Part shown: positions 17,057-22,382 of the stretch, one piece after another
Position numbering within the stretch: the stretch's first letter is position 1
How the letters are laid out: each line of letters opens with the position of its first letter
Assembly: GCA_007125985.1 (NCBI GenBank)
Contig: SLCE01000239.1
Span: 1-37,638, forward strand
From: Ectothiorhodospiraceae bacterium
GTDB lineage: Bacteria > Pseudomonadota > Gammaproteobacteria > Nitrococcales > Aquisalimonadaceae
Direction: 5' to 3'
Length of the DNA: 37,638 nt
The notes under the pieces: generated by a model
Told to the model about the DNA's origin: nothing
The model's input: only the letters and a program-made list of their open reading frames with translations
Database searches by the model: none
Program-made: the position numbers and the translations under genes

Positions 17057-18535
17057 TCAGGCGTTACGTTCGGGCCGACCCGACAGCTCGATTGCGGCAA
17101 GCGCAGGCACAGGTCGCGTCTCGGCCGGCGTCTGCGCGCCGGTCCGATCCGAATCAGCACGGAAGCGGGCCTGGATAAGCCGTTCGATCCACAAAGGAAT
17201 CGCTATGAACACATCGTACATCTGAATCAGCAGCCGCCCAGCCACCGTAGCAGACACCGAGAGCCCCCGCCCGAGCAAGGCGCCCGTGTGCAACAGCGCC
17301 CAGAGAATCATGGCCGTCACCGGTCGCACCGTGGTGCCCAACATACCAAGAGGAACCGCCGCGAAGGCCAGCAAAAACGGAAACAGAAGTAGCAAGCCGC
17401 TCAGCACCGTCTCTCCCAGGATACCAAGGAGTATCTGTTCACCGATTCCACCAACGGCCAGTGGCGCCACGGAAAGCGTCTGCATCGCCAACCAGTAGTA
17501 GGCACTCGCAACACCGGCGGCAATCAACAGCAGGGCGCAGAAGCTGAGCCAAAAGATACTCCGCCTCACGCCAGATGGCAGCCCGGTCAGCGGCGGGATC
17601 ACCCGGCTCACCCGCTGGGAGTCCAACAGCAGAATGCCCAGCAACAGCTGCAGACCGATCAGGAGCCCCAAGGTCATCTGCCAGGCCGCCACTCCCGGCA
17701 GCAGAACTTCATCGCCAATCACGCTGCGCATGGGCTCCGCCGCCAGTCCGCCGTAGGCCGCCACACCGGCAATCGCCAAGCCCAGAAGCAGTGCCGCCAC
17801 GAGGAATCGCCCCAATACACCGGCAGCCAAGACCACCAACTGGCGCCGCCCGGTCTGGCGCAGCCGCTGGTAGGCAACCAGACGGCGGCGCGTCATCCGC
17901 AACCCCTGCTCGAGGCGGCCCAGCCGCACGTCCAGCGCCTCCAGCACCCGTTGCACACGCCGCCAACGCGGCATCATGCGGTAGAGCAGCAGGTAACGGC
18001 GCTGATGCTGCTGCCGCTGCTGCTCCCGTGCATCGGCTCGTTGCTGGGCCAGCGTATCGCGAATATCCTCGAGCGTTCGCCCCACGGCACCGGTGTGCTC
18101 TGCACCCAAGCGGGACACCGCGTCCATAACGCGCGCCCAATTCGGCGGCTCGGCAGGGGTGTCCGCGCTGCGCTGAAAATCCTCCTCCAGCGCGGCCACA
18201 TGCCGGCCCAGCCGCTGTCGCAGCACAGGCAGCGTATCCAGCTCTTTTCTCGCCTGGCTTGCCAACTGTTCATGGGCGTCGCGCAGTTCAAAGGCTGTGG
18301 TGTCCCGCGCCTGCCGCAGCAACAGCCGCTCACACCAGCCACGGACGATAAACGCCGCCCGGCTGCAGTAGGCGGTGAGCAGACGCGCCGTGAGGCGGAT
18401 CGAGCGCATCACGGTCATCAGCAGGGCATGCACCGGACGGCGCGCGAAATACGCAAACACCATGGCCAGCGGCAACCACACCAGGAGCATCAGCCAGGGG
18501 CTCGAGGCAAGCAGCAGTTGCTCGGAGTTGGGCAT
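17057..18535 (-). CDS. Conserved-looking membrane protein with a central coiled coil, function unknown
   Basis: I do not recognise a named family for this 492-residue protein. An N-terminal hydrophobic helix at about residues 13-30 is followed by a second, weaker helix, then a long charged helical region at about 75-225 rich in Arg, Gln, Glu and Leu that could form a coiled coil. Further hydrophobic helices lie at about 233-262, 280-304, 327-350, 368-400 and 404-424, and the hydrophilic tail (about 455-492) is rich in Pro, Ala and Thr. It is probably an inner-membrane protein with a cytoplasmic or periplasmic helical arm. AAGGAG lies 6 bases before the ATG. It is divergent from ppk and upstream of a TetR gene, which suggests a link to phosphate or polyphosphate, or control by the TetR protein. 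Confidence 0.8.
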   Translation of the reverse strand: MPNSEQLLLASSPWLMLLVWLPLAMVFAYFARRPVHALLMTVMRSIRLTARLLTAYCSRAAFIVRGWCERLLLRQARDTTAFELRDAHEQLASQARKELDTLPVLRQRLGRHVAALEEDFQRSADTPAEPPNWARVMDAVSRLGAEHTGAVGRTLEDIRDTLAQQRADAREQQRQQHQRRYLLLYRMMPRWRRVQRVLEALDVRLGRLEQGLRMTRRRLVAYQRLRQTGRRQLVVLAAGVLGRFLVAALLLGLAIAGVAAYGGLAAEPMRSVIGDEVLLPGVAAWQMTLGLLIGLQLLLGILLLDSQRVSRVIPPLTGLPSGVRRSIFWLSFCALLLIAAGVASAYYWLAMQTLSVAPLAVGGIGEQILLGILGETVLSGLLLLFPFLLAFAAVPLGMLGTTVRPVTAMILWALLHTGALLGRGLSVSATVAGRLLIQMYDVFIAIPLWIERLIQARFRADSDRTGAQTPAETRPVPALAAIELSGRPERNA

Positions 18536-18612
18536 GGTGTTCTCCTTCAGCGGGGCGGCCGCCGCAGCCTGACAGCGTCAATCACGCCAGGACACGATTT
18601 CCTATTTCCGCC

Positions 18613-18642
18613 ATTATGCCCATCGGAGCGAACGGTAGGCAA
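18613..18642 (-). promoter_or_regulatory. Candidate promoter of the 492-residue membrane protein gene
   Basis: On the minus strand TTGCCT (18642-18637) and CATAAT (18618-18613) are 18 bases apart, matching 4 and 5 of 6 consensus bases. The leader would be about 70 bases and ends in AAGGAG before the start codon. Confidence 0.4.
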
Positions 18643-18720
18643 AATCACGCCAATGCCCACCCGTGTCAGGGGCGGTCCGTTACCCGGGGAAGAACCGTGC
18701 CGGGCTGTTTCATGAACCGC

Positions 18721-18738
18721 CGTTCATACGGCTGTCAC
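18721..18738 (+). promoter_or_regulatory. Pho-box-like site 1 upstream of ppk
   Basis: Two heptamers, CGTTCAT and CTGTCAC, lie 4 bases apart, the PhoB-site layout; they match CTGTCAT/CTGTCAC at 5 and 7 of 7 positions. A -10-like TACACT (18749-18754) starts 10 bases after the box, the spacing seen in PhoB-activated promoters of E. coli. The leader to ppk would be about 25 bases, with GGAG at 18777-18780. Confidence 0.6.
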
Positions 18739-18752
18739 GTTGACGCAGTACA

Positions 18753-18770
18753 CTGTCATCAGATTGACAC
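18753..18770 (+). promoter_or_regulatory. Pho-box-like site 2 upstream of ppk
   Basis: CTGTCAT (7 of 7) and TTGACAC (5 of 7) are separated by CAGA, again a 7-4-7 arrangement, 14 bases downstream of site 1. It overlaps the expected transcription start of the first site, so it may add PhoB binding or be used differently. No -10 is seen in the short space after it. Confidence 0.5.
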
Positions 18771-18785
18771 CGAAATGGAGCCCAG

Positions 18786-20858
18786 ATGAGCGATACGGAT
18801 TTTCGTCGCCCGGAGCTGTTTCTCAACCGGCAGTTGAGCCTGCTTGAATTCAACGCCCGTGTGCTGGAGCAGGCGCGGGACCCACGGGTTCCGTTGCTGG
18901 AGCGGTTGCGCTTTCTCTGTATATCGAGCACCAATCTGGACGAATTCTTTGAGATCCGGGTCTCCGGGCTCAAACAGGCGGCGGAACTTGGCTCCACCCA
19001 GGCCGGAGCGGATAACCGCACACCGCAGGAGGTGTTGCGCCAGGTCAGTCAGCGGGCGCACACGCTGGTGGAGGCGCAGTACCAGGTGCTGAACTCGGTG
19101 CTGATTCCGGATCTGGCACGGGAGGATATCCGCTTCATCCGTCGCGGGGAGTGGAATGCGGCGCAACGGGGCTGGGTGCGGAACTATTTCGAACATGCGC
19201 TGCTGCCAGTGCTGAGCCCCTTGGGGCTGGACCCGGCCCACCCCTTCCCCCGCATACTCAACAAGAGCCTGAACTTCATCGTTCAACTGGAGGGGAAAGA
19301 TGCCTTCGGCCGCAACAGCGGGCTGGCCGTAGTCCAGGCCCCTCGCGCCCTCCCCCGCTTGATCCGCGTGCCATCGGAGCATGGCAGCGGCCCCAATGAT
19401 TTCGTGTTCCTGTCGTCGATCATCCATGCGCATGTGGATGACCTGTTTCCCGGCATGTCCATCAAGGGCTGCTATCAGTTCCGTGTGACCCGCAACAGCG
19501 ATCTGTACGTGGACGAGGAGGAAGTGGACGATCTGCTGGTGGCCATGGAGGGGGAACTGCAGTCCCGACGCTATGGCGATGCGGTTCGTCTGGAAGCGGC
19601 GGCCAACTGCCCGGAACGGCTGACCCGATTCCTGTTGCAGGAATTCGGGCTGGACGAAGACGATCTTTACCAGGTGGACGGTCCGGTGAATCTTAACCGG
19701 CTCATGGCCGTGGTGGACGGCGTGGACCGGCCGGACCTCACCTATCCCGGCTTCACCTCCAGCGTGCCGCCGGAACTGCAGCGCAACGCCGATATCTTTA
19801 AGCTGCTGCGCCAACGGCCGGTGTTGTTGCACCACCCGTTTCAGTCCTTCGCCCCGGTCATCGACTTCATCCGCCAGGCGGCTGGCGACCCCCACGTTCT
19901 CGCCATCAAACAGACCCTGTACCGCACCGGGCCGGATTCCGCCATCGTCGACGCCCTGGTGGACGCCGCGCGGGCCGGCAAGGAGGTCACGGTGGTTATC
20001 GAACTACGGGCCCGGTTCGATGAGGAAGCCAACATCCAGCTGGCGAACCGACTGCAGGATGCCGGCGCCCACGTGGTCTATGGGGTGGTGGGCCATAAGA
20101 CCCACGCGAAAATGGTGTTGGTGGTCCGCCGCGAGGGGGAACAGCTGCGGAACTACGTACACCTGGGAACAGGCAACTACCATTCCCGCACCGCCCGCCT
20201 GTACACGGACTACGGCCTACTCACGGCGGATACGGCCATGGGCGAGGACGTCCACCGCATTTTCCTGCAACTCACCAGCCTGGGCCGTGTGGCCCGGCTC
20301 AACACGCTGGTGGAATCACCGTTTACGCTGCACGAACGCATGCTGGCGCTGATCGAGCGGGAACAACGGCACGCCGAGGCCGGCCATGAAGCACGCATCA
20401 TCGTCAAGCTGAACAGCCTCACCGAGCCTCGGATTATCCAGGCCCTGTATGCAGCCTCCTCGGCCGGCGTGCATATAGACCTGATTGTGCGCGGGATGTG
20501 CTGCCTGCGCCCTGGCGTGCAGGGGGTCTCGGAGCGCATCCAGGTACGCTCCATTATCGGGCGGTTCCTGGAACACACCCGGGTCATGTATTTCCACAAT
20601 CATGGCGAGCCCGAGGTCTACCTGAGCAGTGCGGACTGGATGGAACGCAATTTCTTCAGACGGGTGGAAGTGGCCTTCACGGTGGACAATCCTGAACTGC
20701 GGCAACGGGTGATCGATGACCTGGACACCTACCTTGCGGACGACGCCCAGGCCTGGTTGCTGGACGCTGAAGGCACCTATCACCCCGCGGCGCCCCATAA
20801 GGAAACACCCACCAGTTCTCAGGCCATTCTGCTGAAGCGCCTGGCAGAACACGCCTGA
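18786..20858 (+). CDS. ppk: Polyphosphate kinase 1
   Basis: PPK1 builds inorganic polyphosphate from ATP. The 690 residues match E. coli (688). The N-terminal domain begins ELFLNRQLSLLEFNARVLEQ, followed by the head domain ending at SSTNLDEFFEIRVSGL-type sequence, and two phospholipase-D-like domains form the active site. The autophosphorylated histidine is H440 in GHKTHAKM, and the second essential histidine is H459 in VHLGTGNYH; their spacing of 19 is that of E. coli H435 and H454. GGAG lies 5 bases before the ATG. Two Pho-box-like sites upstream suggest induction on phosphate starvation. It faces ppx, only 12 bases away, so synthesis and breakdown genes are paired but separately transcribed. 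Confidence 0.98.
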   Translation: MSDTDFRRPELFLNRQLSLLEFNARVLEQARDPRVPLLERLRFLCISSTNLDEFFEIRVSGLKQAAELGSTQAGADNRTPQEVLRQVSQRAHTLVEAQYQVLNSVLIPDLAREDIRFIRRGEWNAAQRGWVRNYFEHALLPVLSPLGLDPAHPFPRILNKSLNFIVQLEGKDAFGRNSGLAVVQAPRALPRLIRVPSEHGSGPNDFVFLSSIIHAHVDDLFPGMSIKGCYQFRVTRNSDLYVDEEEVDDLLVAMEGELQSRRYGDAVRLEAAANCPERLTRFLLQEFGLDEDDLYQVDGPVNLNRLMAVVDGVDRPDLTYPGFTSSVPPELQRNADIFKLLRQRPVLLHHPFQSFAPVIDFIRQAAGDPHVLAIKQTLYRTGPDSAIVDALVDAARAGKEVTVVIELRARFDEEANIQLANRLQDAGAHVVYGVVGHKTHAKMVLVVRREGEQLRNYVHLGTGNYHSRTARLYTDYGLLTADTAMGEDVHRIFLQLTSLGRVARLNTLVESPFTLHERMLALIEREQRHAEAGHEARIIVKLNSLTEPRIIQALYAASSAGVHIDLIVRGMCCLRPGVQGVSERIQVRSIIGRFLEHTRVMYFHNHGEPEVYLSSADWMERNFFRRVEVAFTVDNPELRQRVIDDLDTYLADDAQAWLLDAEGTYHPAAPHKETPTSSQAILLKRLAEHA

Positions 20859-20870
20859 TCAGCCTTCTTC

Positions 20871-22382
20871 CTACTCCAGACGGAGCGCCATATCCACCGA
20901 TTGCAACCAGCCGGCCTCCTCGTCCAGCTCGGCAACCGTCAAGGGATGCGATTCCAGCCACTCACGGGGCAGGCGCAGCCTTAGCTCACCACCCCGCCAG
21001 TGCAACTGGAGCGCCGGCAACGGCTCTGCATGGCGGCCACGATGCAGGATCACCGCCAGCCGCAACAAGGCCGCCAGCCGCAACAACTCCGTGCGCCGTC
21101 CGGACGGAAAATCACTGAAATGATTCAGGCGGATTTTCCGCCGATGGCAGCGGATCAACCCGGCGGTTGCCGCCTGGTCCTGCCGTGAAAAACCGGCCAT
21201 ATCAGCATGGCGCACCACGTAGGCGCCATGTTTCTGGTACTGGGCATGGGCGATATCCAGGCCGATCTCATGGAGCAGCGCAGCCCAGCGCAATGGCCGA
21301 ACCTGCCATGATTCCAGATTCCAATCGTCGCGCACCTGCTCGAACAGGTATTCCGCCGTGGCAGCCACACGCGCCGCCTGCTCCACATCCACGTGGTAAC
21401 GGGCCTGCAGGGCGGTCACGGTCAGATCCCGCACATCGTCATTGCGTATCCGGCCCAGCAGGTCGTACAGCAGGCCTTCCCGGAGCGCACCATCCGACAC
21501 CTGCATATGATCGATATCCAGGGCCTCGAAAATTCCGGCCAACACCAGCGCCCCGCCGGCAAATACCGGCCGCCGCTCAGCACTAAGTCCCCGCAATTGC
21601 ACATTGTCGGAATGCCCCGCCCGCAACAGCGCCGCCTGCAGACGTTGCAGTGAATCCCGGCTGATTCCCCGCTCACTCCAGCCCTCTGCTTCCACCACGG
21701 ACTGTACCGCCCGCACGGTGCCGGAGGCGCCGACTGCCTGTTCCCAGCCGGCATGACGGTACGCCTGTTGAATCGGTTCCAGTTCCCTCAGCACCGCTCC
21801 GCGAAGCCGTTGCAGTCGCGCCGGCTCCAGGCGGCCTTCGGGCAGAAAGCGTCGGGTCATGCTCACACAACCCATGTGCAGGCTTTCCATCATCACGGGC
21901 CGGATTGACTCGCCGACAATCAGTTCGGTGCTGCCACCACCGATATCAATGACCAGCCGTGACCGACCGTGTTCTGGCAGCGTCTGGGCCACGCCCTGAT
22001 AGATCAGACGCGCCTCTTCATAACCGGAGACAATTTCGATGGGGTGCCCGATGGCGGCTTCCGCATCGGCCAGGAAGGCGGCGCCATCGCTCAAGTGCCG
22101 CAGTGTATTGGTACCCACCGCCCGCACGCTCCCGGGTGGAAGATCACGCAAACGCTGGCCGAAACGCTCCAGGCAGGCCAGCGCCCGCTCCCGGGCCTCC
22201 GGTTCGAGTTGGCCGCGAGAGTTCAGCCCGCCGGCGAGCCGAACCATCTCCTTGATTCGGTCCACCACCTGGAGCGCACCGTGGCGGTTGCTCGCGATGA
22301 CCAGGTGGAAGCTGTTGGAGCCCAGATCCACCGCAGCGACCAACTCCGGCTCACCTACGTGGCTGTTGAGCGGCGGTTGCAT
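20871..22382 (-). CDS. ppx: Exopolyphosphatase (Ppx/GppA family)
   Basis: Ppx removes terminal phosphate from polyphosphate. The 503-residue protein has the ASKHA-type fold: the phosphate loop AAVDLGSNSFHLVIAS near residues 16-31, the second loop LVIDIGGGSTELIVGE near 143-158, and a C-terminal HD-like region from about 320 onward with LRWAALLHEIGLDIAH. Length and C-terminal extension fit full-size Ppx (513 in E. coli) or GppA (494); the position beside ppk favours Ppx, but guanosine pentaphosphate hydrolysis cannot be excluded. Its ATG shares one base with the sixA stop (TGATG), so it is probably translated by coupling. Confidence 0.94.
   Translation of the reverse strand: MQPPLNSHVGEPELVAAVDLGSNSFHLVIASNRHGALQVVDRIKEMVRLAGGLNSRGQLEPEARERALACLERFGQRLRDLPPGSVRAVGTNTLRHLSDGAAFLADAEAAIGHPIEIVSGYEEARLIYQGVAQTLPEHGRSRLVIDIGGGSTELIVGESIRPVMMESLHMGCVSMTRRFLPEGRLEPARLQRLRGAVLRELEPIQQAYRHAGWEQAVGASGTVRAVQSVVEAEGWSERGISRDSLQRLQAALLRAGHSDNVQLRGLSAERRPVFAGGALVLAGIFEALDIDHMQVSDGALREGLLYDLLGRIRNDDVRDLTVTALQARYHVDVEQAARVAATAEYLFEQVRDDWNLESWQVRPLRWAALLHEIGLDIAHAQYQKHGAYVVRHADMAGFSRQDQAATAGLIRCHRRKIRLNHFSDFPSGRRTELLRLAALLRLAVILHRGRHAEPLPALQLHWRGGELRLRLPREWLESHPLTVAELDEEAGWLQSVDMALRLE

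Follow-up and report, generated by a model that had tools for sequence, protein, structure and literature searches.

The window analysed here, i.e. the whole stretch of 37,638 nucleotides taken from contig SLCE01000239.1 of an Ectothiorhodospiraceae bacterium, contains the gene coding for polyphosphate kinase 1 (ppk), preceded by two sequences that resemble Pho boxes (Table 1). The source genome (G000) has a size of 3.24 Mb, distributed in 248 contigs. Upstream of ppk there is a divergent gene coding for a 492-aa protein. A tblastn search of 111 ppk loci detected this protein at the loci of 12 of the 13 family relatives, the remaining one being the truncated L094, and elsewhere only in L002, which apparently holds the same sequence as G001; judged by these matches, it is a family-specific neighbour. 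On the other side, ppx is convergent to ppk and does not share an operon with it, and a Pho control acting on ppk would therefore not necessarily reach polyphosphate breakdown.

Table 1. Features of the ppk region, with positions counted from the first nucleotide of the window.
Feature	Position	Strand	Remarks
Predicted Pho box 1, CGTTCAT-ACGG-CTGTCAC	18721..18738	+	Predicted site of PhoB activation, in place of a -35 element; 12.8 bits; conserved in the family
-10-like hexamer, TACACT	18749..18754	+	10 nt (18739-18748) past box 1
Predicted Pho box 2, CTGTCAT-CAGA-TTGACAC	18753..18770	+	7.9 bits; shares two bases with the -10-like hexamer and spans the inferred start region
ppk, polyphosphate kinase 1, 690 aa	18786..20858	+	TIGR03705, 973.5 bits (cut-off 465.85)
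Divergent sigma-70-like promoter of the neighbouring gene, TTGCCT-18-CATAAT	18613..18642	-	Outside the Pho element
Gene of 492-aa protein, divergent from ppk	17057-18535	-	Without matches in NCBIfam or Pfam (E 0.001)
ppx, exopolyphosphatase/GppA family	20871-22382	-	Convergent to ppk; outside any ppk operon

Each of the two boxes is composed of two direct heptamers of the TGTCA type placed 4 bp apart, and in the pattern search each shows two mismatches against CTGTCAY-N4-CTGTCAY; the perfect heptamer is the second one in box 1 (CTGTCAC) and the first one in box 2 (CTGTCAT). The first-pass annotation of this DNA had described two such 7-4-7 pairs within 50 bases before ppk, with one perfect heptamer each, and this description is exact to the base; the -10-like hexamer that it had placed exactly 10 bases past the first site was also confirmed. 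The transcription start of ppk is expected at about positions 18760-18762. Box 2 spans this expected start, and the ATG of ppk begins 16 bases past the end of the box. No sigma-70-type promoter was found on the plus strand between positions 18500 and 18900.

Other assignments of these elements were considered and discarded. Box 2 probably does not activate a promoter of its own in the way proposed for box 1, because no -10-like hexamer is found 10 nt downstream of it in any of the four genomes that carry it; besides, the ATG follows at the short distance already mentioned. The TTGACA contained in box 2 (18764-18769) was rejected as a sigma-70 -35 element, given that its -10 would fall in the coding sequence and that G007 has ATGACA in this place. 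It is also thought unlikely that the boxes serve the divergent gene: they are oriented to ppk, and that gene is preceded by a separate sigma-70-like promoter, of which the ATTATG (CATAAT on the minus strand) is visible in the ppk upstream regions of 8 of the 12 readable relatives.

The source genome encodes one PhoB above the cut-off of its family (359.9 bits against 296.2), directly followed by PhoR (429.7 bits, cut-off 334.2) and by the start of a PstS-like gene that is cut by the contig end and reaches 22.3 bits, under the 27-bit cut-off. Its own phoB promoter is formed by CTGTCACAAAACGGTAAC, 10 nt and TCTAAT, and its pstC promoter by CTGTAACACAACGGTCAT, 10 nt and TAGCAT. In the family, 10 of 11 phoB loci showed a box followed after 10 nt by a T....T hexamer (L160, in which the phoB start was not found, was left out of this set). 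Boxes with two or fewer mismatches, assigned to pstC by their position, are present in 9 of the 14 family genomes, and TAGCAT or TACCAT lies 10 nt past all nine of them. At the same mismatch limit, no pstC boxes were seen in G001, G005, G012 or the genus mates G006 and G007; L205 and L207 gave no match, and none was assigned to pstC in L195, L196, L200 and L203. At the level of the order, PhoB was detected in 46 of 54 genomes, in 45 of them above the cut-off. A close PhoB was not found in G002, G004 and G013, whose best matches are 36-40% identical; these three genomes keep boxes before ppk as well as before pstC, and the missing PhoB likely corresponds to gaps in fragmented assemblies.

For the search of further sites, 27 boxes of phoB, pstC and pstS in the family were combined, with ppk sites excluded, in a PhoB matrix of 18 positions; the training boxes were chosen by mismatch count, which biases the matrix to consensus-like sites. 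The first-pass annotation had proposed such a scan, and when it was run on the window, the only plus-strand positions with at least 6 bits were the starts of the two boxes already noted, at 18721 and 18753. Three positions reached this score on the minus strand (2944, 23631 and 24496; the three scores, in ascending order, are 8.4, 8.7 and 10.1 bits). Pattern matches with two or fewer mismatches amount to 56 in the whole genome, compared with 30 for the backward pattern, so a single site of this kind means little by mismatch count alone. On the other hand, the best site in the 150 bp before ppk had p = 0.0025 in 2000 shuffles, and none of 1000 column-permuted matrices reached the mean observed for the ppk upstream regions of the family. 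In these 13 regions, the opposite strand gave a maximum of 14.0 bits (G003/L096) followed by 4.3 bits, and the reversed matrix a maximum of 7.5 bits. Related to the pair of boxes, both strands of the window and of 80 named ppk loci (1,271,952 scored positions) were scanned for two boxes of at least 6 bits with starts 25-40 bp apart; only the pair before ppk in the window and one place in L048 were found. The latter (L048:4907-4944, plus strand) is a pair 37 bp apart located downstream of ppk, on a contig of a Halomonas MAG.

The conservation of box 1 was analysed in the family, which comprises 14 genomes, 13 of them with a readable ppk upstream region (G009/L094, with 24 nt upstream up to the contig end, was dropped). 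Within 150 bp before ppk, 11 of these 13 genomes have a matrix site of at least 8 bits and nine a site of at least 10 bits, counts that represent non-independent trials, as the family sequences are related. A box of at least 4.8 bits followed by 10-11 nt and T[AC]NNNT precedes ppk in 12 of the 13 (11 when at least 5 bits are required). In the thirteenth, G013, ATGTCACGACATTGTCAT, followed by 10 nt and TAGCCT, is located at -188 and is the best site within 200 bp, with 16.1 bits. For comparison, 10 bits were reached in 9 of 307 control upstream regions, and a box of at least 5 bits with 9-11 nt and T[AC]NNNT was present in seven of the 307; these controls come from a mechanical list of ORFs (at least 250 aa, ATG start) in the 80 named loci, which includes some non-genes and maybe Pho genes. 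Outside the family, 10 bits before ppk are reached in 9 of 34 genomes of the order (four of the 34 with distant PPKs, about 40% identical). Among the 80 named loci, 15 reach this score, and these do not all lie outside the order: L002 (Aquisalimonas lutea) shares the upstream region of G001, and L001 (Spiribacter) shares the best site of L211. Therefore, a Pho box before ppk recurs, but its distribution is patchy.

Pho-controlled ppk genes are known from Acinetobacter, Klebsiella and Vibrio. The available part of a review on the Pho system likewise describes ppk of other bacteria under a phosphate-starvation regulator, and this is the likeness to the case reported here (PMC4415409). In general, PhoB-activated promoters have 7-4-7 repeats (same source) and a strict spacing of the site to the core promoter, according to the portion available of PMC10294691. 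The ppk promoter agrees with PhoB-activated sigma-70 promoters, and with the phoB and pstC promoters of its own genome, in the 7-4-7 repeats, the -10 at 10 nt and the lack of a -35; it differs from them in its target, ppk, and in the extra box over the expected start. In Herbaspirillum, the excerpt available of PMC8222739 indicates that ppk2 alone of the polyphosphate genes is induced, and at high phosphate, against the general expectation. Regarding previous descriptions, "ppk" is absent from the main text of the E. coli PhoB ChIP paper (PMC10294691), and the part available of PMC3163519 holds nothing on a Pho box of ppk. A second box over the start of ppk is not described in the available part of the review (PMC4415409), and no ppk promoter with a PhoB site over the start was found among the titles and abstract openings listed in searches of open-licence papers, which does not prove its absence. 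PhoB control of ppk is a known kind of regulation, and it is box 2 over the expected start that is the unusual element.

The first-pass annotation had predicted that ppk is activated by PhoB during phosphate starvation. Comparison gives this prediction good support: PhoB and PhoR are present, similar boxes precede the phoB and pst genes of the family, the geometry of box and -10 is conserved before ppk and no sigma-70-type promoter was found on the plus strand at 18500-18900. From this geometry and the known properties of PhoB promoters, we infer binding and activation by PhoB at box 1, which seems likely whatever box 2 does.

The second site is shared by few relatives. The start of box 2 is located +32 bp from the start of box 1 in the three genus members examined (G000, G007 and G006), and in G012, which belongs to a further genus, it is at +37. 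Twelve family genomes were tested for a second match with two or fewer mismatches after box 1, and eight of them lack it (G013/L095 was left out, its box being at -188); G001 has a second match with three mismatches at +34. When the region after box 1 was shuffled 2000 times, the score of box 2 was reached in no more than 0.45% of the shuffles in each of the four genomes; for the 47 bases after box 1 of the window, box 2 had p = 0.0045 by score and 0.001 by mismatches. The identity of the box 2 heptamers is 12/14 between G000 and G007, 10/14 between G000 and G006, and 9/14 between G006 and G007, and the identity of the spacers in the same pairs is 9/18, 4/18 and 7/18. Only in the window does box 1 score higher than box 2; in the other two-box genomes box 2 prevails, with 8.9 against 6.3 bits in G007, 16.2 against 14.2 in G006 and 22.3 against 11.9 in G012, a matrix score being no affinity. 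No second match with two or fewer mismatches was found downstream in the family promoters examined, 10 of phoB and 18 of pst genes; one box per promoter was used for this search as well as for training, and several promoters have overlapping matches. Six pstS promoters (L195, L199, L200, L202, L203 and L206) present a weaker second box at +22, with 3-4 mismatches and 5.3-14.5 bits. Judged by their spacing, these boxes resemble a ladder with steps of 11 bp and thus differ from the +32 pair of ppk, and they indicate that ppk is not the only gene with a second box.

Taking into account these comparisons, box 2 is probably a real PhoB site, and a mechanism may be proposed in which ppk is activated by PhoB through box 1 and limited by a second PhoB site, box 2. 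When phosphate is scarce, PhoR would phosphorylate PhoB, and a PhoB dimer on box 1 would stand in for the -35 and recruit sigma-70 RNA polymerase to TACACT, with transcription starting near the expected position. A second PhoB dimer on box 2, placed over the -10 and the start, would hinder the polymerase, and when PhoB~P is plentiful the output of ppk would be capped or transient. We infer this hindrance by analogy, as the best reading of the predicted site, because box 2 is without its own -10 and covers the expected start. Both halves jointly constitute the favoured, though tentative, reading, to which we give slightly less than even confidence.

The analogy comes from the phoB promoter of E. 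coli. According to the part available of the study by Gao and Stock (2018, PMC6194859), this promoter is repressed at high PhoB levels through a weak PhoB site in the -10 region, and repression is relieved when the site is mutated. Both promoters combine an activator box with a PhoB site located at the -10, predicted in the case of ppk. However, the E. coli site is listed as antisense, with 5 bp between the TGTCA tracts, whereas box 2 of ppk has 6 bp and the sense orientation; moreover, the target in E. coli is the regulator gene and repression was tested, whereas here the target is ppk and repression is proposed by analogy. A repressing or fine-tuning role of the second site had been put forward in the first-pass annotation. 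The same +32 offset in three genus members and the E. coli precedent speak for such a role, but the scores of the relatives do not fit the order expected of a simple weak brake. As box 2 exceeds box 1 in G006, G007 and G012, the two boxes may not be occupied in the same order in all relatives, and if score tracks affinity, repression could precede activation in these three genomes. A more specific version for the genus, possible although rather doubtful, is that box 1 opens the promoter and box 2, about three helical turns downstream, closes it, so that ppk would be on at middling phosphate shortage but restrained when starvation is severe; in relatives, changes in the relative strengths of the boxes would then have adjusted this balance or even turned it round. 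Whether polyphosphate is built or withheld when phosphate becomes exhausted bears on phosphorus removal and on survival of starvation. Besides, the two-box ppk promoter and the relatives with box 1 only form a natural series, in which activation can be set against activation plus brake.

It is a serious possibility that box 1 alone works and that box 2, arisen by chance or in decay, has no effect on ppk. This would agree with the low score of box 2 in the window and its lack in 8 of 12 family genomes, as well as with the finding, in the portion available of PMC10294691, that most PhoB sites of E. coli are intragenic and show no detectable regulation; however, those inert sites are intragenic and unconserved, whereas box 2 is intergenic. 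An inert box 2 is also difficult to reconcile with the constant +32 offset in the genus, with heptamers more alike than spacers, with shuffle p values of 0.0045 or lower in each of the four genomes and with a pair spacing that is nearly unique in 1.27 million positions.

Net repression, in which PhoB would mainly shut ppk in starvation via box 2, sparing phosphate and ATP, seems unlikely. The higher score of box 2 in three of the four genomes carrying it and its overlap with the -10 point in this direction, but in the window box 1 scores higher, and in eight of the 12 family genomes tested box 1 is not accompanied by box 2. Moreover, most bacteria induce PpK for phosphate storage, as stated in the available part of the review (PMC4415409).

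It is very unlikely that a different OmpR/PhoB-type response regulator, reading similar direct repeats, is the one that uses these sites. The PhoB model has 33 matches in the source genome, of which nearly all are restricted to the receiver part, with one further full-length match; the TGACA half-site of box 2 departs from TGTCA, and the three family assemblies without a close PhoB have ppk boxes. Nevertheless, a matrix trained only on phoB and pst promoters of the same family finds ppk, and a TGACA half-site is also found in the ppk box of L017 (CTGTCACAGGAATGACAT), 10 nt before the -10 TAGACT. Finally, a chance pattern with ppk expressed regardless of phosphate is scarcely credible, for although the 56 genome matches against 30 in the control indicate that such sites are not rare, box and geometry are conserved family-wide.

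Other boxes were observed in the source genome. At G000:C184:4914-4931 (L108:1515-1532) there is a perfect 7-4-7 Pho box, with no ORF start (at least 100 aa) listed within 400 bases downstream. The region G000:C91:6462-6551 (L107:1463-1552) contains two Pho boxes, a perfect one on the plus strand and one with two mismatches on the minus strand; a Na+/Pi cotransporter gene (PF02690) has its first start 109 bases beyond the latter. At G000:C162:5324-5341 (L109:1525-1542), CCGTCATACGCCTGTCAT is followed by 10 nt and TACACT, 54 bases before an ORF with a Sel1 repeat; it is possibly a further Pho promoter, although the box also lies inside an overlapping reading frame of 292 aa.
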